Origin: Pedobacter nototheniae
Lineage (GTDB): Bacteria; Bacteroidota; Bacteroidia; Sphingobacteriales; Sphingobacteriaceae
Direction: 5' to 3'
DNA length: 64,000 bases
NCBI RefSeq assembly: GCF_004335085.1
Contig: NZ_RQRS01000015.1
Location: forward strand, 62,001-126,000
The notes beneath the pieces are model-generated. The model did no database searches, had not been told where the DNA came from, and saw only the letters and a list, made by a program, of their open reading frames with translations. The translations under genes and the position numbers were made by a program. Shown here in pieces: positions 28,480-40,643 of this stretch (positions are counted from its first letter, which is position 1; each line of letters starts with the position of its first letter).

Positions 28480-31400
28480 TTAAGCTTCGGCATCTTTTAC
28501 GCTACCTGTTCTTTTTAAAGTTCCCCAGGTTTCCAACTCACCTTTTATAGCCTTACGGAAGGAACGGAATAAAACTAAGTACATCAATTGTCTCCAAAAA
28601 AACCTTTGCGGAAAAATGTAAAGCAAATTCTTAAACTTTTCATTTTCCATTTTAAAGGCAATTGCGGCAAAAACCATATCTACAATAATGAAGATAATGT
28701 AATAGAATAATACTTGTCCGAACCCATTATGAAGGCTAAGGATGCCAGAGAAACCGGTTAGTGTTAGGTTATTAATTGCACTTAATGAGAATAAACCACT
28801 AATAAGTGAAATCAGCATAAATAAATCTGCCAAAGGGGAGAATAGGGGTAATATAATTTGGTAAATTAATATATTAGGCATTCCAACCATACCAAAATAG
28901 CCATATTTTTTGTTTAGCAGAGTCTTTCTGTTTTTCCAGAAACTTTGCATTACACCAAAACTCCAGCGGAAACGTTGCTTTAAAAGCATATTAACCGTTT
29001 CAGGTGCTTCTGTATAGGCAACAGCTGATGAACAGTTTTTAACAGTATAGCCTGCTCTTAAAATGCGCATGGTTAAATCACAATCTTCTGCAAGGGTATC
29101 AACTGTAAAGCCCCCAATTTCTAATACTACAGCTTTTCTAAAAGCTCCAATTGCACCTGGAACTACAGTAATTGTGTTCAACAAATCAAAGGCTCTTCTA
29201 TCCATATTCTGAGCAGTAATATACTCAATGGATTGCCATTTGGTAATGATGTTGTGTGCGTTTCCAACTTTAACAGTACCAGCTACGGCAGCAATTTTTT
29301 CATCATAAAAATAACGCATTAGCTCAGTTACGGCATCGGTTTTTAACTGAGTATCTGCATCAATACAAACAATATAATCTGCGCTAGCCATAGTTATACC
29401 ATAATTTAAAGCCGAAGCTTTGCCACCATTTTCTTTGCGGTAAACCTTTACTTGTGGATGGTTTCCATATTCACTATTTACCATTTCGAAAGTTTTATCC
29501 TTCGAACCGTCATCCACGAAAATCAACTCAAAGTTAGGGTAAGTAGTTTTTAATAAGCTTTTTATGGTTTGTATTGCGGTTACTTCCTCATTGTATGCAG
29601 GGATAATAATACTTACCTTTTCTGAAGGGTTTTTAACGAGTAAATGTGCATTTAACTTCGATTTTCTTCTCTGTCTGATTGCCAGATAAGCGATAAAAAT
29701 AGTACGAAGAATGGCTAATACAATTGCAATTGTAAATACAATATCCAAAAAGATATTAGCATAATAAAAGAAACTTAGGAAAAGGTAATTACTTGAACCT
29801 GTGAACCCACTATTAGCGCTCGATTGAACAGCAGGCATTAATTCTGAGCGTTTTTTACCCATTAAATCGCCAACGGTAGTAAAAGTATAACCTTTTTGCT
29901 TAAAGAACTTTATTATTCTTGGGAGGGCAGCCACGGTTGCTTCTCTATTTCCCCCAGCATCGTGCAACAATAAAACATTTCCATTATCTTGTTGCTTAAC
30001 AACCTCATTAAAGATTTGATCGGCTGTTTTTCCGGGTTCCCAATCTTCAGGATCAATATATTCACCAATATTAATGTAGTTTTCCTTTCTACTTTGTGCC
30101 ACTGGTAAAATTTCAGAAATATTTTGAGGTTCAGCGTCTGCATTAAACGGCGCTCTAAACAAAATTGTACTGTGCCCGGTTACGCATTCAATAATACGAC
30201 GGGTAGCATTTAGTTCAAATTTAACTCTACGAGGTCCAATGGTAGACATATCTGGATGAAAAAAGGTATGATTGCCAATTTCATAACCTTCATTATATTC
30301 TCTTCTCAGTAGTTCCATGTTTTTTTCGGCCATAATACCGACCACAAAAAAGCATGCTGGAACCTTTTCTTTTTTTAATATATCCAGAATTTGAGGAGTG
30401 TAAATAGGATCTGGACCATCATCAAATGTTAGTGCAATTTTTTTATCGGCTTCTCCAAAGCGTTTAATCACGTATTGAGAAGGTAAACGAATGTATTTTT
30501 GGTCTGCAATGGTAAAATTAGTTTTATCTAAGGTAAACTTAACGCTGCCTGGAGATGGGGTTGATACCAAATCCAAAATCTCTCCATTACCGATGTAGGA
30601 GATACCGCCCATTACCAAAGCCGAAATCTTACGTAAATCTATAGGTTTCTTTTTTAGAGAATCAAGGCTTAAATCATTAGAAATAAATTGCCATAATCGT
30701 TTATCCTCAGATCCTAGGCGCCACAATGCCACACCTGCAATTCCCCAATCATCCGCTTTTCTAATTAAATTAAAATTGGTAGCTGCATCGGTAAAGTATA
30801 CATCATGTCTAATTCCGTTAGCATCATTATAATTATAATTTAAGTTTGCTGATGCAGGATCATAGTTGACGGTACTTTTGTAATTAACCGCATTAATAAT
30901 TGCGGCTTCATAAGTAACAGGAACACCAATGCTTTTGCTGGGCCAATCGTAACCATAGCAAGCTAACGCCAAAATAACCTTATTTGGATCAACTTTGCTA
31001 CAAATATCATCAAGCTTATCTTCAACCCATTCTTGGTGGGAAATATCGCCAGCATTACTTTGATCATTATGCTGATCGTAAGCCATTAGGATGATATAAT
31101 CGTTATAATGTTGAAGTATTTCAGGTTTATAATCATCGTTTTCAGGCGAAATATCCTGTGAAACAATTAATTTTTCGTTATGAAACTGTGTGTACAGATT
31201 TTTCATAAAGTTGTTAAAAGAATCACTGTTTTCCAGGTTTAATTCTTCAAAATCGATGTTTATACCTTTAAAGCCATACTTTTTGGTAATGGTTATTAGG
31301 TTACTGATTAATTTCTCTTGTGCATCAGGGTTGTTTAAAAGCCTTCTAACAGCCTGGCCATCCCAATGATCTGTATTGTAATTAGAAACAACAGCAATTG

Positions 31401-31884
31401 CTGATTTTTTTCCTTCTTTAATTACCCTCAAAGCCGCGGTATCTGCCTTATCTACAATTGAATCTCCATTTAAGAAAAAAGATTCAGTTGCAATCATGTC
31501 CAAATGGCTAATATTGCGTTTTAAGTTTGATAATGATTTATCTTTCGTTCCAGCCCAACTTACGTAAAAGGCCATGTTAATACGTTTATTATTTCCACGT
31601 TTGGTCAATATTCTGTGCTCCCGATCTTTCCTGATCTTTTGGAGCTTAGATTTTAGAATGGTAAAATCTTTATATTGTTGCGACTTTTTTAAACGTTCTA
31701 ATTGTTTTTGAGTAAGCGGGGTATTGGTATTGATAAACGGCAAGTTTGGTGCCTGTACCGATGATAAAGTGTAGGCAACGCAAATAACAGCGATAATGAA
31801 GACTAAAAATAGAGTACGGCTTACCCACGTAAAAGTGTGCCATCGCCTTTTAGTCTCAGTTTGAAAGATTTGTTTTCCGGACAT
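28480..31884 (-). CDS. Three-part enzyme: GH18-like hydrolase, polysaccharide deacetylase, processive GT2
   Basis: The 1134-residue membrane protein starts with a short cytosolic tail and a helix (about 18-40). A GH18-type domain (100-425) has GINIDFEEL, giving the catalytic acidic motif. A NodB-type deacetylase (480-690) has LTFDDGPDP, NHTFFHP and LFRAPF. After another helix (710-735) comes a GT2 domain (750-1000) with SIIIPAYNEE, FVDDGSKD, CIDADT and the processive-synthase motif QRFRW, then three or four C-terminal helices. By analogy with PgaB and PgaC, it may make, deacetylate and trim a beta-linked N-acetylhexosamine polymer. The hydrolase and deacetylase would face the periplasm and the GT2 part the cytosol. 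The combination in one chain is unusual, but I recall relatives in other Bacteroidota. Confidence 0.88.
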   Translation of the reverse strand: MSGKQIFQTETKRRWHTFTWVSRTLFLVFIIAVICVAYTLSSVQAPNLPFINTNTPLTQKQLERLKKSQQYKDFTILKSKLQKIRKDREHRILTKRGNNKRINMAFYVSWAGTKDKSLSNLKRNISHLDMIATESFFLNGDSIVDKADTAALRVIKEGKKSAIAVVSNYNTDHWDGQAVRRLLNNPDAQEKLISNLITITKKYGFKGINIDFEELNLENSDSFNNFMKNLYTQFHNEKLIVSQDISPENDDYKPEILQHYNDYIILMAYDQHNDQSNAGDISHQEWVEDKLDDICSKVDPNKVILALACYGYDWPSKSIGVPVTYEAAIINAVNYKSTVNYDPASANLNYNYNDANGIRHDVYFTDAATNFNLIRKADDWGIAGVALWRLGSEDKRLWQFISNDLSLDSLKKKPIDLRKISALVMGGISYIGNGEILDLVSTPSPGSVKFTLDKTNFTIADQKYIRLPSQYVIKRFGEADKKIALTFDDGPDPIYTPQILDILKKEKVPACFFVVGIMAEKNMELLRREYNEGYEIGNHTFFHPDMSTIGPRRVKFELNATRRIIECVTGHSTILFRAPFNADAEPQNISEILPVAQSRKENYINIGEYIDPEDWEPGKTADQIFNEVVKQQDNGNVLLLHDAGGNREATVAALPRIIKFFKQKGYTFTTVGDLMGKKRSELMPAVQSSANSGFTGSSNYLFLSFFYYANIFLDIVFTIAIVLAILRTIFIAYLAIRQRRKSKLNAHLLVKNPSEKVSIIIPAYNEEVTAIQTIKSLLKTTYPNFELIFVDDGSKDKTFEMVNSEYGNHPQVKVYRKENGGKASALNYGITMASADYIVCIDADTQLKTDAVTELMRYFYDEKIAAVAGTVKVGNAHNIITKWQSIEYITAQNMDRRAFDLLNTITVVPGAIGAFRKAVVLEIGGFTVDTLAEDCDLTMRILRAGYTVKNCSSAVAYTEAPETVNMLLKQRFRWSFGVMQSFWKNRKTLLNKKYGYFGMVGMPNILIYQIILPLFSPLADLFMLISLISGLFSLSAINNLTLTGFSGILSLHNGFGQVLFYYIIFIIVDMVFAAIAFKMENEKFKNLLYIFPQRFFWRQLMYLVLFRSFRKAIKGELETWGTLKRTGSVKDAEA

Positions 31885-34369: not shown

Positions 34370-34528
34370 TTACTTCTTCTCAGGTTTAATGTCAGAAAAA
34401 TCTACGCCGCATTTGCAATTTCCGCCGCAGCCATCTTTCTTGATTTGTAAAGATTTATAAACCAAGCGGCCAACATACACTAATGCAACCGCAAAAAGTA
34501 AAAAGACTAATATGGTTTGAGTATTCAT
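34370..34528 (-). CDS. FeoB-associated Cys-rich membrane protein
   Basis: This 52-residue protein has one N-terminal transmembrane helix (about 5-25) and a short cytosolic tail with a cysteine cluster, DGCGGNCKCG. This matches the family usually found beside the ferrous-iron transporter FeoB. No feoB is in the window, so here it is an orphan. The frame remains open upstream, but the ATG at 34528 is the appropriate start. A -7-like TATATTTG on the minus strand (34533-34540) lies only 5 bases before it. Confidence 0.75.
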   Translation of the reverse strand: MNTQTILVFLLFAVALVYVGRLVYKSLQIKKDGCGGNCKCGVDFSDIKPEKK

Positions 34529-34592
34529 GATACAAATATAAAATGCTTTTGTCTTTTTGTGTTCAATTGAATGTAATATTACAGGTATTATG

Positions 34593-35780
34593 CTATTTTT
34601 CCATAAACCCAATAGTGCCACCAACCCAATCAAAATCAGCATTATATCTAACACCAATCATTTTACCCCTGCTTAAGCGGGCTAAATTTATACAAAGTTG
34701 AGGCTCTTCTCCATCTGCCCATAAGTACATTAATCTTATTTCAGCCTTTACGCCGCCATCAGGAGCTTGTACTGCTGGTTCGTAATTTACTTTTCTTTGC
34801 AATATCCAGTTTTCGGGATCTTTGATGTTTTCTATGTCGGCTTCGCTCACATCAATAATAACTCCCATACCTGCAAAAGAGAATAAAGGTTTTAAAACAT
34901 AGTTTTCTAAATCTACAGGGATGCTATCTAACTGATTCAAAAAACGAGTTTCTGGAACAAATTCGCTATCCAAAAATGGCATGGTGTATTTGCTGATTCG
35001 GTAAAACCAATTTGGATGTGTTACCCATTCTACATCTAATTCTTCTCGAGGATTGAAGCTATTTTTAAAAAGACCTTCATTATCGGCAATTTCATCAAAA
35101 ATAAGACGGTTGTAAATTCTTTTTAACTGAATTTGTTTTCCATTTTCCTCATAAAAAAGCTGCTTTCCAATTCGCTTGATGTCTTCCAGTGCCAGAATTT
35201 TGATTCCCAACATTTTTTGAGTGACAAAAAAGTCAATTGCTGTTTTTTGGTTTGGCGCATCAACATCCATTAAAGCAACTTCTGTTGGCTGGTGTTTACC
35301 AATAATTATCTTTTTTAGTAGCTGAGTATATTTTTGTTCATCAAAGCCATTTAAAAAATAATCTGTCGTGTTATCTAATTCGAAAGATTCGCGGTACGTT
35401 TTTGCAAGATGATTTTGAAAGCCATAAAGTGATGGAAAACCTTGCATTTCGATCAACATTGGCGTTAACTCGCCTGTTTTATTTTTACAAATTCCAAAGT
35501 CGAATGTTAAAAAATGGGGATGATCGTTCTCATTAGGCACGTTCCATTGTTTTGGAATTGCACTTTGAGTTAAAGCCTTAAAATTGGGTTGTTTAATTAA
35601 ATCGACAATTTCATTTCCTGCAGCTATTAATTTTTCCTTTAATTGCTTGGGGATAAAAACGGGCGTTTCTGCCACCCTGAAAGGTATTTCTGGATAGCCT
35701 GCTTCAAGTTTTTTTATAAATTGGAGATACTTTTCTTCAGTAAATTGCTGGTTATATTTTTGACGTTGAGCAGGTATCAT
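34593..35780 (-). CDS. ATP-grasp-like ligase, last gene of the amidoligase cassette
   Basis: A 395-residue soluble protein. The C-terminal half has features of an ATP-grasp fold: a lysine and glycine-rich stretch in NYVLKPLFSFAGMGVIID, an adenine-contacting segment WILQRKVNYEP, and charged strands with EIRLMYLWADGEEPQLCIN. The N-terminal half contains FDFGICKNKTGELTPMLIEM. The substrates are not predictable. It follows the glutamine-amidotransferase gene by 50 bases on the same strand. Given the neighbours, it probably joins an amino acid or amine to a carboxylate. Confidence 0.6.
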   Translation of the reverse strand: MIPAQRQKYNQQFTEEKYLQFIKKLEAGYPEIPFRVAETPVFIPKQLKEKLIAAGNEIVDLIKQPNFKALTQSAIPKQWNVPNENDHPHFLTFDFGICKNKTGELTPMLIEMQGFPSLYGFQNHLAKTYRESFELDNTTDYFLNGFDEQKYTQLLKKIIIGKHQPTEVALMDVDAPNQKTAIDFFVTQKMLGIKILALEDIKRIGKQLFYEENGKQIQLKRIYNRLIFDEIADNEGLFKNSFNPREELDVEWVTHPNWFYRISKYTMPFLDSEFVPETRFLNQLDSIPVDLENYVLKPLFSFAGMGVIIDVSEADIENIKDPENWILQRKVNYEPAVQAPDGGVKAEIRLMYLWADGEEPQLCINLARLSRGKMIGVRYNADFDWVGGTIGFMEK

Positions 35781-35830
35781 AATAAGCTTATTTAAGATTT
35801 TCGTGCTTACAGGAATAAGGTATTATTGCG

Positions 35831-36658
35831 CTATGCTTCCTGCAAATGAGCTATTGCCTTATTTAAAAAATTAGGTAAAATAACACTTTGGGTAAGTACA
35901 ATTCTTGCCGGATCATCGAGGCTATTTAACATGTCGAAATATTTTTCTTCTCCATGGGTATCAATGATTACCTTTTTCTTTTCTTCCTGAAGAAGGTACA
36001 TTTTCATGCCAACAGGATCGGCCTCAGGATGAAATTGGGTGCCTATAATTTCGTTTGTAAAACGGATAGACATCATACAGCGTTCGAGATTTACATGTTT
36101 ACGCTCTTTTTCAATGGCCAATAACTTTGCGCCTTTTTCTTCAAAAGCCTCTAAATTAGGCTCAATTACTTGCCAATCACGACTATCTACCGAGAAAAAT
36201 GGATTGGTAATTCCCTGAAAAATCTCATCATTTTCGCCTTCTTCTGTTAGCGTAATTGGGAAAATACCAAATGCATTCGATCTTCGTTCGGTTACATTAC
36301 CAAGGTTGTATTTACGACAAGCGAGTTGAAAGGAATGGCAAATTAAAAATGCATATTTCTTCTGGTCGCTGTTTTCATTGTTAAAACTTTCGATTTGATC
36401 CAAAAGATTAAAAAAATCATTCTCCCACTTTTCGCCCTTACTTTCAATTGGGCTACCAGGGCCGCCGCTCGAAATATAGGCATCGTAATCAATACCTGGA
36501 ATTTCACCTTTTTGTCTTAAATCAAAAATATCAAACGAAAGATCCAGGTTGTTTTCTTCTTTAAAACGAGATAAAATTTCCTGAATCCCTCGCATACCTT
36601 GATTAGGTGCACCATTATTTAAATCAATAACGGCGACCTTTAATCTATTTTTATCCAT
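35831..36658 (-). CDS. Class I glutamine amidotransferase-like protein
   Basis: A 275-residue protein of the GATase1 fold. The oxyanion region is SSGGPGSP, the nucleophile is Cys107 in LICHSFQLA, and the catalytic His and Glu are in GTQFHPEADP, so the triad looks complete. The family releases ammonia from glutamine or cleaves gamma-glutamyl bonds. I choose the ATG at 36658 (MDKNRLKVAV); a TTG seven codons upstream would overlap the preceding gene. Only 4 bases separate it from the carboxylate-amine ligase gene, which argues for coupling of the two activities. Confidence 0.85.
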   Translation of the reverse strand: MDKNRLKVAVIDLNNGAPNQGMRGIQEILSRFKEENNLDLSFDIFDLRQKGEIPGIDYDAYISSGGPGSPIESKGEKWENDFFNLLDQIESFNNENSDQKKYAFLICHSFQLACRKYNLGNVTERRSNAFGIFPITLTEEGENDEIFQGITNPFFSVDSRDWQVIEPNLEAFEEKGAKLLAIEKERKHVNLERCMMSIRFTNEIIGTQFHPEADPVGMKMYLLQEEKKKVIIDTHGEEKYFDMLNSLDDPARIVLTQSVILPNFLNKAIAHLQEA

Positions 36659-36662
36659 TTTT

Positions 36663-37778
36663 TTAATTACTTGCGCCAATAAGTGTTTGATTAGTAATGT
36701 AATCTACCACAGATTCAAAGTTACCAGTTTGCTCGTAAACAGCCAACTGTCTATCAGCACCAGTACCATGCTCTAAAATTTTATGCACGTAATTAATGTC
36801 GTTTCTGCAACCTAATTCATCCACCACATCATCTACAAAATCTAATAATTCTAGCACTAAATTGCGGCAGTTTACTTCCATTTCCTTACCGAAATCGATT
36901 AAATTGCCATCAATTCCATAACGGGCAGCACGCCATTTATTTTCATTAATTAGAGCTCTTGAATAGCTTATAAACTCCATATTTTGTAAACGAAGTTTAT
37001 ACAATTTAGCACACAATGCCTGAAATAGTGCCGTAAAAGCCATCGTTTCGTCAATTAACATTGGGCAATCGCAGATGCGAAATTCTACGGTATCAAAAAA
37101 TGGATGTACGCGGATATCCCACCAAATTTTCTTTGCATTATCCATGCAATTGGTTTTAATCAGCAGTTTTACATAATTATCGTAATCTTCAATACTGTTA
37201 AAAATATCAGGAATACCAGTACGAGGAAATTTATCAAAAATTTTGGTTCTGAAAGATTTATAACCCGTATTTCTCGATTCCCAAAATGGAGAATTAGTTG
37301 ATAATGCAAAAACATGGGGTAAGAAATACCTAACCTGATTTGCAATATGGATTGCCAACTCTCTGGATTGAAAGCCAACGTGTACGTGCAAGCCAAAAAT
37401 TAAGTTAGAACGTGCAGCTTCCTGCAGTTCATTAACAATTTCATTATATCGGGGATGTTCGGTAATTAATTGTTTTTCCCAATGCGAAAATGGGTGTGTG
37501 CCAGCGGCTCCAATGCGTAAGCCCTGCTCGCCTGCAAGCTGCGATACAGTATAACGAAGCTGAGAAATTTCTTTACGTGCTTCTTCTGTGGTGCGGCAAA
37601 TGCCTGTACCAACTTCAACAACGGCCTGGTGCATTTCTGCTTTAACCTGGTCTTTATGTATTTTTTGGGCAGCCTCAACAATTTTTTGGTCGTGTGAAGT
37701 AAGTTCCCTGGTAACGGGATCAACTACCATGTACTCCTCTTCTACGCCAAGCGTGAATTCATTCATCCTGATGCTCAT
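36663..37778 (-). CDS. Carboxylate-amine ligase, YbdK / GCS2 family
   Basis: A 371-residue enzyme of the glutamate-cysteine ligase type 2 superfamily (COG2170). Visible motifs are FTLGVEEEYMVVDP at the N-terminus, VVEVGTGICRT, GLHVHVGF and RVHPFFDTVEFRICDCP. Relatives form an amide between the gamma-carboxylate of glutamate, or another acid, and an amine, using ATP. It sits in the middle of the cassette, 19 bases after the first ATP-grasp gene. The product is unknown, and glutathione synthesis is only one possibility. Confidence 0.9.
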   Translation of the reverse strand: MSIRMNEFTLGVEEEYMVVDPVTRELTSHDQKIVEAAQKIHKDQVKAEMHQAVVEVGTGICRTTEEARKEISQLRYTVSQLAGEQGLRIGAAGTHPFSHWEKQLITEHPRYNEIVNELQEAARSNLIFGLHVHVGFQSRELAIHIANQVRYFLPHVFALSTNSPFWESRNTGYKSFRTKIFDKFPRTGIPDIFNSIEDYDNYVKLLIKTNCMDNAKKIWWDIRVHPFFDTVEFRICDCPMLIDETMAFTALFQALCAKLYKLRLQNMEFISYSRALINENKWRAARYGIDGNLIDFGKEMEVNCRNLVLELLDFVDDVVDELGCRNDINYVHKILEHGTGADRQLAVYEQTGNFESVVDYITNQTLIGASN

Positions 37779-37797
37779 TTTAGTTCAATCCCTTTAG

Positions 37798-38865
37798 TTA
37801 TTTTTTATCAGCTGCTTTTTTAGGCTTATCAGCTGCTTTTTCTTTAGTAGATTTTGTTGCCGCAGGTTTAGCTGTTGTAGTTTTTGCTGCGGTTGGTTTA
37901 CTTGTTTTTGCAATTAATGGTTTCCCACCAACGGATGCTTTAATATATTCGCCCCAGGTTAAATTATCCTGTCCAGGTTTTTGCGCTTTAGCCCTTTCAA
38001 TAGCGTAGTTGGCTGTAGTTTCTACTACCCAATCAAAATTTTCTTGTCCAACACTTTTAATGTCAGCATCTGGTGCAGGGTTACAAAAATCAATTGCAAT
38101 AGGCACTCCATCTCGCACTGCAAACTCTACAGTGTTAAAATCATAACCTAAATAATTACACAGTTTAAGGGTATATTCTTCAATGGTTTTTAAAAGCTTG
38201 GCGCTTGATGGTGCCTGCTCAACGGCATAACGTAAATGGTGCGGGTTGCGAGGGTCGTATTGCATAATGCGTACATGTTTGCCGCCAATGCAATAACATC
38301 TAAAATATTCATCAAAAATAATTTCTTCCTGTAAAAGCATTACCAACTGTTCTGTACCTGCATGTTTGTTGAAAAAATCTTCTTTATCATGTAGTTTATA
38401 AACATCTCTCCATCCACCACCATCATAAGGTTTCATATAGGCTGGAAATCCTGTGTATTCAAAAATTGCATCCCAATCTAAAGGCATCGTTAGGTTTGAA
38501 AAAGAATCACTAGTGGTTCCTGTGGGGTGCTGTCTGGAAGGGATAAGTGCTGTTTTTGGAACAGGTACACCAATTTGCTCAGCAAGTGCGTTATTAAAAA
38601 ACTTTTCATCAGCACTCCACCAAAATGGATTATTGATTACTGCGGTTCCGGTAATGGCGGCGTTTTTTAATGATGCTCTGTAAAAAGGAACATCTTGCGA
38701 AATACGATCAATAATTACGGCGTAATCCAATGGAGCATTCTGAAATATTTTGTCGATTTTAACAGCTTCGGCTGTGATGCCTTTCTCTGCTTTTTGATTA
38801 ATTCTTTCAATTACGGCTTCAGGAAAAGAGCGCTCCTGGCCAAATAATATCCCTATTTTTTTCAT
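37798..38865 (-). CDS. ATP-grasp ligase with Ala/Lys-rich tail
   Basis: A 355-residue RimK-like ATP-grasp protein. It has an N-terminal MKKIGILFGQERSFPEAVIE, the lysine and glycine loop AYMKPYDGGGWRDVY, the adenine segment LLQEEI, and the metal-binding C-terminal region VEFAVRDGVPIAIDFCNPAP. The last 37 residues are a low-complexity tail of Ala, Lys, Thr and Pro, resembling histone H1 tails. The open frame extends 50 codons upstream into the esterase gene, but ATG 38865 fits the family. It probably activates a carboxylate as acyl phosphate and joins it to an amine. Confidence 0.85.
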   Translation of the reverse strand: MKKIGILFGQERSFPEAVIERINQKAEKGITAEAVKIDKIFQNAPLDYAVIIDRISQDVPFYRASLKNAAITGTAVINNPFWWSADEKFFNNALAEQIGVPVPKTALIPSRQHPTGTTSDSFSNLTMPLDWDAIFEYTGFPAYMKPYDGGGWRDVYKLHDKEDFFNKHAGTEQLVMLLQEEIIFDEYFRCYCIGGKHVRIMQYDPRNPHHLRYAVEQAPSSAKLLKTIEEYTLKLCNYLGYDFNTVEFAVRDGVPIAIDFCNPAPDADIKSVGQENFDWVVETTANYAIERAKAQKPGQDNLTWGEYIKASVGGKPLIAKTSKPTAAKTTTAKPAATKSTKEKAADKPKKAADKK

Positions 38866-38953
38866 CTGTACTTTAATTAGTTTAATTGTGTAACTGGTTA
38901 ATGGGTTAATTGTTTGCAGTTTATCAGGATTATTGATAAGTAGCAATGTTAAT

Positions 38954-39661
38954 TTAAAGTTGTGCAATGTAATCTGGAAACATTTCTCTCCAGATTGGCC
39001 AATCGTGGTCTGCATTTGGTCGGATATCCAACCAATGATTAATGCCTTTTTGCGTTAAAATGTGCGATAGGCGTTCGTTATCAGGTTTGCACATATCGCG
39101 ATCTGAAGTGCCAAGTACAATTTTCATGTAATGCAAATCTGGATTACTACTATTCGGAACGTAATCAACAGGGTTATTGAAATACACATCGTCATTGTAA
39201 AATCCATCAAGCTGCCCGGTAATATCAAATGCGCCACTCATGCTAAACATATGGCTAACTAACCACGGATGCCTAAATGCAAAGTTTGCCGCATGATAAC
39301 CACCAAAACTGCAGCCAGCGGTAATGATTTTATCGTGCCCGGTTTCATGTCTGGCTAAAGGTGCAACCTCCTCCAACAGATATTTGTCGTACCAGATGTG
39401 ATTTTTTACTCTATCTGCGGGATGTATGCCTTTGTTGTACCAGCTTAATTTATCAATGCCATCCGGACAGTAAATCTTAATCTTTCCTTCGTTAATAAAT
39501 CCCTCAACAGAATCTATTAATTTGAAGTCCTTATTTTCGAAATACCGCCCCATACTCGTTGGAAACAGTAGAATAGGGATGCCACTGTGGCCAAAAGTGA
39601 GCATGTCGATCTCAGCACTTAAATTTGGGCTGTACCACTTTTTATGTTCTTCTTTAACCAT
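38954..39661 (-). CDS. Esterase (alpha/beta hydrolase, esterase D-like)
   Basis: This 235-residue serine hydrolase has the nucleophile motif GCSFGGYHAANFAF and a C-terminal histidine in NADHDWPIW. No signal peptide is visible, so it is probably cytosolic. It is the first gene of the minus-strand amidoligase cassette, 88 bases before the ATP-grasp gene. Its presence suggests removal or transfer of an ester or thioester in the pathway, or release of the product. A paralogous esterase is divergently encoded at 39834. Confidence 0.85.
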   Translation of the reverse strand: MVKEEHKKWYSPNLSAEIDMLTFGHSGIPILLFPTSMGRYFENKDFKLIDSVEGFINEGKIKIYCPDGIDKLSWYNKGIHPADRVKNHIWYDKYLLEEVAPLARHETGHDKIITAGCSFGGYHAANFAFRHPWLVSHMFSMSGAFDITGQLDGFYNDDVYFNNPVDYVPNSSNPDLHYMKIVLGTSDRDMCKPDNERLSHILTQKGINHWLDIRPNADHDWPIWREMFPDYIAQL

Positions 39662-39779
39662 ATAAAAAATTGAATGTTTTAAGATATAAATTTCTTTTTA
39701 TAAAATGAATGTATAGTTGATGAAATTAAAGCTTTATGTAAAAATTGATCGCTGATAATTAATAGTTTACTGAGTTTTG

Positions 39780-39787
39780 TACCTTTG
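39780..39787 (+). promoter_or_regulatory. Promoter of the second esterase gene
   Basis: TACCTTTG followed by CA is a strong match to the Bacteroidota -7 consensus TAnnTTTG, 46 bases before the ATG at 39834. The -33 position lacks a clear TTTG. Confidence 0.55.
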
Positions 39788-39833
39788 CATCCGAATTCTG
39801 GGGCAGTAAGCCGTGTGATAGGGGATTAAGCAT

Positions 39834-40643
39834 ATGTACAATACAATTTTATCAGTAAAAGTTAATACAATTAGTTATAAAGTGCCTTCGGCTTTTTTAA
39901 AGCACGATGTGGAAATAGATGTATACGTTCCTGAAGGTATTTTAGGCAACGAAAAAATAGAACTTCTCTTGCTAAATGATGGTCAGGATGTGGCTAAAAT
40001 GAATTTTGCGGAGATTTTAGAAGAAGCACACCTTCATAAAAGAAACAACAGGTTAATAGTTGTGGCCATTAAAGCATCTGCAGATCGTTTGATGGAATAC
40101 GGAGTTGCTGGCGTTCCTGATTTTAAAGGCAGAGGCGCAAAAGCAAATTCGTATACTGATTTTGTGATTAAAGAACTTTTACCTTTCGTTAAAAAGAAAA
40201 TAGCAATGCCAATTACAGGCAAAGTTGCTTTTGCTGGCTTTTCATTGGGTGGTTTATCTGCTTTTGATATTGCCTGGAATAATCCAAATGTTTTCGATGT
40301 TATTGGTGTATTTTCAGGTGCTTTCTGGTGGCGTAAAAAAGATTTAGCAGATGGTTATACCGATGCTGATCGAATTATGCATGGCATGATTGATGCTTCA
40401 ACTACAAAGTCCGAAATGAAGTTTTGGTTAATGACCGGAACGGAAGACGAAAAAGCGGATCGCAATAAAAACATGATTATCGATTCTATTGATGATACAA
40501 TTGATATTGTTAAAGGATTATTGAAGAAAGGATATAAACGCCCCGAGAATGTTTTTTATTTCGAAAAGGTTGGGGGCAAGCATGATGTACCTACTTGGCA
40601 AAGTGTAATGCCGGCTTTTTTAAATTGGGCTTTCGAAGGCTAA
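39834..40643 (+). CDS. Esterase (alpha/beta hydrolase, Fes/esterase D-like)
   Basis: A 269-residue hydrolase. The N-terminal strand region (EIDVYVPEG, LLLLNDGQD) and the nucleophile motif AFAGFSLGGLSAFDIAW are typical of the putative-esterase family that includes enterochelin esterases. The catalytic His is likely in GGKHDVPTW near the C-terminus. It is cytosolic and divergently transcribed from the amidoligase cassette with its own promoter. Proximity to a paralogue at the cassette's first position suggests both act on related substrates. Confidence 0.87.
   Translation: MYNTILSVKVNTISYKVPSAFLKHDVEIDVYVPEGILGNEKIELLLLNDGQDVAKMNFAEILEEAHLHKRNNRLIVVAIKASADRLMEYGVAGVPDFKGRGAKANSYTDFVIKELLPFVKKKIAMPITGKVAFAGFSLGGLSAFDIAWNNPNVFDVIGVFSGAFWWRKKDLADGYTDADRIMHGMIDASTTKSEMKFWLMTGTEDEKADRNKNMIIDSIDDTIDIVKGLLKKGYKRPENVFYFEKVGGKHDVPTWQSVMPAFLNWAFEG

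Follow-up and report, generated by a model that had tools for sequence, protein, structure and literature searches.

Enzymes that share the fold of AG1, the last gene of the operon described here, link gamma-glutamylcysteine with glycine or beta-alanine, or attach polyamines to peptides; relatives of its GCS2 ligase produce gamma-glutamyl amides. A survey of amidoligase operons by Iyer et al. 2009, probably the one that an earlier note on this DNA alludes to, reportedly predicted that combinations of an ATP-grasp enzyme, a GCS2-like ligase and a hydrolase make metabolites, and is said to have placed PF14403 ligases in a predicted peptide-tagging system. Furthermore, YgiC and YjfC have been termed peptidylpolyamine synthetases, and the E-64 ligase Cp1B forms a pseudodipeptide, using R139, D141, E163 and N165 (PMC12568646). 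Multi-ligase amide cassettes are already known as a kind. In the literature searched, with Iyer et al. 2009 outside the comparison, we found neither a pairing of a YbdK-type ligase with an ATP-grasp enzyme nor a description of the present cassette; its combination of genes, near-perfect co-inheritance, obligatory esterase and two slot replacements are undescribed there.

The window, i.e., the whole stretch of 64,000 nucleotides that was analysed, comes from a Pedobacter (nearest loci ~70-87% identical over AG1). All six open reading frames (ORFs) that the earlier note had proposed were confirmed at their coordinates, and a candidate promoter was added.

34593..35780, minus strand: AG1, ATP-grasp amide ligase of the GSS / GspS / YgiC fold family; terminal gene of the operon, 395 aa
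35831..36658, minus strand: GAT, class I glutamine-amidotransferase fold (PF00117), predicted gamma-glutamyl or amide hydrolase
36663..37778, minus strand: GCS2, GCS2/YbdK-type carboxylate-amine ligase; 371 aa (PF04107, PRK13515)
37798..38865, minus strand: AG2, small RimK/LysX/Ddl-like ATP-grasp ligase (weak TIGR00768 match) with a Lys/Ala-rich C-terminal tail
38954..39661, minus strand: EST1, esterase of the alpha/beta-hydrolase type (PF00756); opens the operon
39780..39787, plus strand: candidate promoter; TAnnTTTG, the Bacteroidota -7 element, is matched 47 bases before the ATG of EST2
39834..40643, plus strand: EST2, second PF00756 esterase, divergent; synteny kept in Sphingobacteriaceae and in some other families

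Transcription on the minus strand (39661-34593) runs in the order EST1, AG2, GCS2, GAT, AG1. The measured intergenic gaps of 88 (EST1-AG2), 19 (AG2-GCS2), 4 (GCS2-GAT) and 50 (GAT-AG1) bases agree with the earlier description of five co-directional genes separated by 4 to 88 bases. The divergent esterase had also been rightly called a paralogue: EST1 and EST2 both pass PF00756 and are homologous to each other (hhalign 98%, ~22% identity). The start of AG2 was corrected to the ATG at 38865, on which orthologue starts agree, instead of the ORF maximum at 39015; for GAT, the most likely start is the ATG at 36658, not the TTG at 36679. The TAnnTTTG element occurs once in the 172-base intergenic region against 0.27 expected (both strands counted), and scans for sigma-70 promoters and terminators gave no excess over shuffles.

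Two neighbours of the operon were also recorded. An ORF for a FeoB-associated Cys-rich membrane protein (PF12669) lies at 34370-34657; its overlap with the end of AG1 is confined to an upstream TTG extension. At 28480-31884 lies a 1134-aa protein whose motifs suggest that GH18, NodB deacetylase and GT2 glycosyltransferase are fused in it; a homologue of this protein directly adjoins AG1 in Mucilaginibacter.

Co-inheritance of the gene set in the Bacteroidota

The complete arrangement, with EST2 adjoining EST1, AG2, GCS2, GAT and AG1, is found in 72 of 80 loci from Pedobacter, Mucilaginibacter and related genera. The order AG1-GAT-GCS2-AG2-EST1 recurs across many Bacteroidota families. Gene order is thus held far beyond the genus and the genes co-occur phylum-wide, so that a lack of co-conservation outside the genus, which the earlier note had named as a refutation, does not apply. 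The view of a functional cassette of amide-bond-forming enzymes is supported.

In a survey of 296 Bacteroidota genomes (presence cut-offs of at least 300 bits for AG2 and at least 440 bits for GCS2), an AG1-type ligase was present in 107 and AG2 in 105. Both occurred together in 104 genomes, one alone in 4 and neither in 188 (Fisher p 2e-75, in a test that treats genomes as independent although they are related). With dozens of families showing the pattern, the conclusion of co-inheritance stands whatever the precise p-value. GCS2 was found in 93 and GAT in 70 of the 296 genomes, in no case outside the genomes with an AG1-type ligase. In several families the cassette genes are dispersed across the genome, with co-occurrence retained. 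Pairwise distances between the cassette families are correlated as well (Mantel r 0.55-0.82, uncorrected for species phylogeny).

The esterase follows the same pattern. In a sample of 80 genomes, EST1 was present in all 45 cassette-positive genomes and in 3 of the 35 negative ones (the latter counted above 100 bits); the unlinked EST1 genes fall into a subgroup with lower scores. In its occurrence, EST1 is thus tied to AG2 roughly as closely as the ligases are, which bears out its earlier assignment to the cassette. Its residues Ser118, Asp189 and His219 are mostly conserved among orthologues. The nucleophile serine is lost in two loci (L131 and L133), where Asp or Phe stands instead, and a genome congeneric with L133 has a second EST1 copy.

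Taken together, it is well supported that the gene set is inherited as a unit in about one-third of the sampled Bacteroidota and constitutes a conserved system. Co-occurrence shows that the genes serve a single process, without specifying its chemistry. Conserved order and co-occurrence rule out a chance neighbourhood. Beside the cassette, no other gene conserved across families was found among ORFs of at least 70 aa, and a graspetide-type precursor was likewise not seen as a conserved extra ORF of that size next to the core genes.

Patchy presence, along with the slot replacements described below, could also be read as the mark of a variable secondary-metabolite cassette, making lineage-specific antibiotics or warhead pseudopeptides in the manner of the E-64 and dapdiamide pathways; the E-64 enzyme Cp1B is indeed a fold neighbour of AG1 (PMC12568646). 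However, the families are single-copy, deeply conserved and correlated, and no conserved tailoring enzyme, transporter or resistance gene accompanies them. Furthermore, plasmid records encoding AG1 or AG2 relatives numbered zero, which counts against such a cassette and also rules out a mobile or plasmid-borne one. We consider a variable secondary-metabolite cassette very unlikely.

Cassette enzymes and replacements in two slots

Sequence searches against the PDB with AG1, AG2 and GAT gave no match or weak matches only, so comparison of folds was needed. AG1 matches no profile of Pfam or NCBIfam at E<=1e-3, PF03738, PF03917 and PF14403 included, and two of its divergent orthologues match no Pfam family even at E 0.1. 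A profile comparison with YgiC was marginal (E 0.03). An AlphaFold model built from 39 orthologues reached a pLDDT of 92.6. Its best Foldseek matches (3n6x, 1m0w, 7uk8 and 9cjn; prob 1.00, query TM mostly 0.55-0.62, E down to 1e-14) point to eukaryotic-type glutathione synthetases, glutathionylspermidine synthetase, E. coli YgiC and YjfC, and Cp1B. By its modelled fold, AG1 belongs to the eukaryotic-type GSS / GspS / YgiC superfamily of ATP-grasp enzymes. D94, E111, Q113, K297, E347 and R349 are invariant among AG1 orthologues, and the D and ExN positions of Cp1B appear, by eye, equivalent to D94 and E111/Q113.

AG1 is missing from 15 genomes that do have AG2 and GAT. They carry instead AG1', a circularly permuted ATP-grasp protein (PF14403) of 450-480 aa, which sits between AG2 and GAT in the loci whose context was examined. 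No AG1-bearing genome has AG1' at a comparable score; a weaker relative (370 bits) occurs in genome G137. Here again the catalytic positions of Cp1B appear, by eye, to have equivalents, namely R114, D116, E128 and N130. Some AG1' operons have an EST2-like gene immediately after GAT. A relationship between AG1 and AG1' was not demonstrable by profile (hhalign probability 7.5%, E 0.005); both families share a glutathione-synthetase-like architecture.

AG2 matches RimK/LysX-type ATP-grasp enzymes weakly. Its best family, TIGR00768 (rimK_fam), is reached at E 5e-9 with 35.9 bits, far short of the 143.4-bit cut-off for RimK-type alpha-L-glutamate ligases, and there is a weak profile match to Ddl as well. 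Judged by sequence, AG2 is a distant relative of RimK only. K145, E180, E247, D259 and N262 are invariant among its orthologues. The low-complexity tail of ~40 aa at its C-terminus (37798-37923), rich in Lys, Ala, Pro and Thr, exceeds 100 aa in two loci (L132 and L151). Elsewhere, in a genome without an AG1-type partner, two TGA codons interrupt an AG2-like gene in frame (G160:C43:90753-91691), which probably reflects gene decay or a fault in the assembly. In one family (L182, L185 and L186), AG2 adjoins a histidine-ammonia-lyase-like gene and GCS2 an S10-carboxypeptidase-like gene, both recognized by eye from motifs.

The RimK name of AG2's best-matching family and the Lys/Ala/Pro-rich tail seen in many lineages could suggest modification of a protein or peptide. 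AG2 and AG1 would then modify a protein or lipid-linked target with amino acids or a polyamine, GAT or its M29-like substitute (see below) would remove the additions, and the esterases would act on the modified target. PF14403, the family of AG1', is also the one reportedly found in a predicted peptide-tagging system. Against this, the tail is missing from many AG2 orthologues, and no conserved extra neighbour gene offers itself as the substrate. Moreover, the Alpha-E/CP-ATP-grasp tagging system was rejected because the own genome lacks its partner gene Alpha-E (PF04168), as do 15 of the 20 positive genomes tested. Modification of a macromolecular target seems to us improbable.

GCS2 scores 211 bits to PF04107 (cut-off 21) and 548 bits to its best NCBIfam model, the carboxylate-amine ligase PRK13515 (cut-off 371). 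Its nearest structures are 1r8g (YbdK) and 1tt4, and it is the only GCS2 gene in its genome. GCS2 is lacking in 14 of the 107 genomes with an AG1-type ligase. All 14 lack a GCS1-type ligase too, which rules out GCS1 as a stand-in; therefore, the putative gamma-glutamyl step is not universal.

GAT passes PF00117 (35.7 bits, cut-off 22.8), and its catalytic triad Cys106/His209/Glu211 is invariant in 26 orthologues. A structural model of GAT (pLDDT 91.9) resembles SMU.1228c, TM1158 and Arabidopsis gamma-glutamyl peptidase 1 (GGP1). GAT is absent from 37 of the 107 AG1-type genomes, and only six of these 37 have a strong match to an M29-metallopeptidase-like gene (PF02073). In five of the six, the M29-like gene lies between GCS2 and AG1 (L134, L138, L140, L146 and G055, the last judged from coordinates); in the sixth, G208, the cassette genes are scattered. 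All six lack GAT (exclusion p = 0.001, uncorrected for kinship and based on six genomes of five families).

The earlier note had left GAT with two roles, ammonia supply or gamma-glutamyl cleavage. The GGP1-like fold and the M29-like slot substitute favour the latter and disfavour the former: a peptidase-like gene in the GAT slot of GAT-less genomes makes it, by analogy, more probable that GAT hydrolyses than that it donates ammonia, and hydrolysis is the activity we predict. Ammonia supply would belong to a glutamine-dependent amidation, in which GCS2 and AG2 build the peptide part and AG1 uses ammonia from GAT to form a terminal primary amide. Such a scheme would suit the class I triad, the amidotransferase DnfC among the fold neighbours of GAT, and the direct adjacency of GAT and AG1 in 27 of 60 phylum-wide loci, the pair standing in some genomes with neither GCS2 nor AG2 nearby. 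It is, however, difficult to reconcile with the many GAT-less genomes and the M29-like occupant of the slot. Furthermore, the characterised fold neighbours of AG1 take amines or amino acids rather than ammonia (PMC12568646 for the neighbours other than GSS). We regard amidation as unlikely.

Predicted pathway and comparison with known systems

In our preferred reading, to which we give about an even chance, the cassette encodes one cytosolic pathway, independent of NRPS and ribosome, that leads to a small pseudopeptide. AG2 and AG1 (or AG1') would each convert a carboxylate to its acyl phosphate and couple this to an amine. GCS2 would, in most lineages, form a third amide, probably gamma-glutamyl. 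GAT, or the M29-like enzyme in some genomes, would hydrolyse an amide, e.g., a gamma-glutamyl group, in order to remove or proofread it, and EST1 (with EST2) would hydrolyse or transfer an ester or thioester of the product. We infer these catalytic roles, the order of the reactions and the gamma-glutamyl content. As a first guess, because of the chemistry of AG1's fold neighbours and of GCS2 relatives, the product may be glutathione-like or peptidyl-polyamine-like. Since no conserved exporter or precursor peptide lies near the cassette, the intracellular small product suggested earlier is plausible.

A broader proposal, which we hold tentatively and think somewhat more likely to fail than to stand, is that about one-third of the Bacteroidota share a small pseudopeptide of gamma-glutamyl or polyamine type, made by enzymes that are interchangeable in two slots. 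If true, this would be a widespread cofactor-like or protective metabolite, so far unseen chemically. Co-inheritance and slot replacements define the pathway in about one-third of the sampled Bacteroidota, including the easily cultured Pedobacter, and the two independent enzyme replacements constrain the role of each step. The pathway also yields a short list of genes to delete, and the metabolite lost should be directly detectable.

Two thiol pathways were set aside. The own genome has no prokaryotic GSH-S_ATP synthetase gene (PF02955), which rules out the canonical prokaryotic glutathione pathway. It does have bshC, on another contig, and bacillithiol was on that account rejected as the cassette product.

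Glutathione biosynthesis by a GCS2-family GshA and a eukaryotic-type GSS resembles the cassette in combining a GCS2-family ligase with a GSS-fold ATP-grasp enzyme. In contrast, AG1 does not match GSS families by sequence, and the cassette adds a second ATP-grasp enzyme, a GATase-fold enzyme and esterases. With GspS, YgiC and YjfC, AG1 shares its fold (Foldseek prob 1.00), and in both cases an amide ligase is paired with an amide hydrolase. However, AG1 is too divergent for PF03738, the cassette has GCS2 and AG2 in addition, and its predicted hydrolase has a class I GATase fold or is an M29-like enzyme, unlike the GspS amidase. GAT, for its part, shares the fold and the Cys-His-Glu residues of the class I GATase-fold enzymes GGP1 and TM1158 at 15-18% identity. 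The Cp1B/Cp1D pathway to E-64 likewise employs a GSS-fold ATP-grasp enzyme and makes a pseudodipeptide without NRPS; its partners are an ANL-family ligase, a dioxygenase and a decarboxylase (PMC12568646), whereas those of AG1 in the cassette are other ligases and hydrolases.
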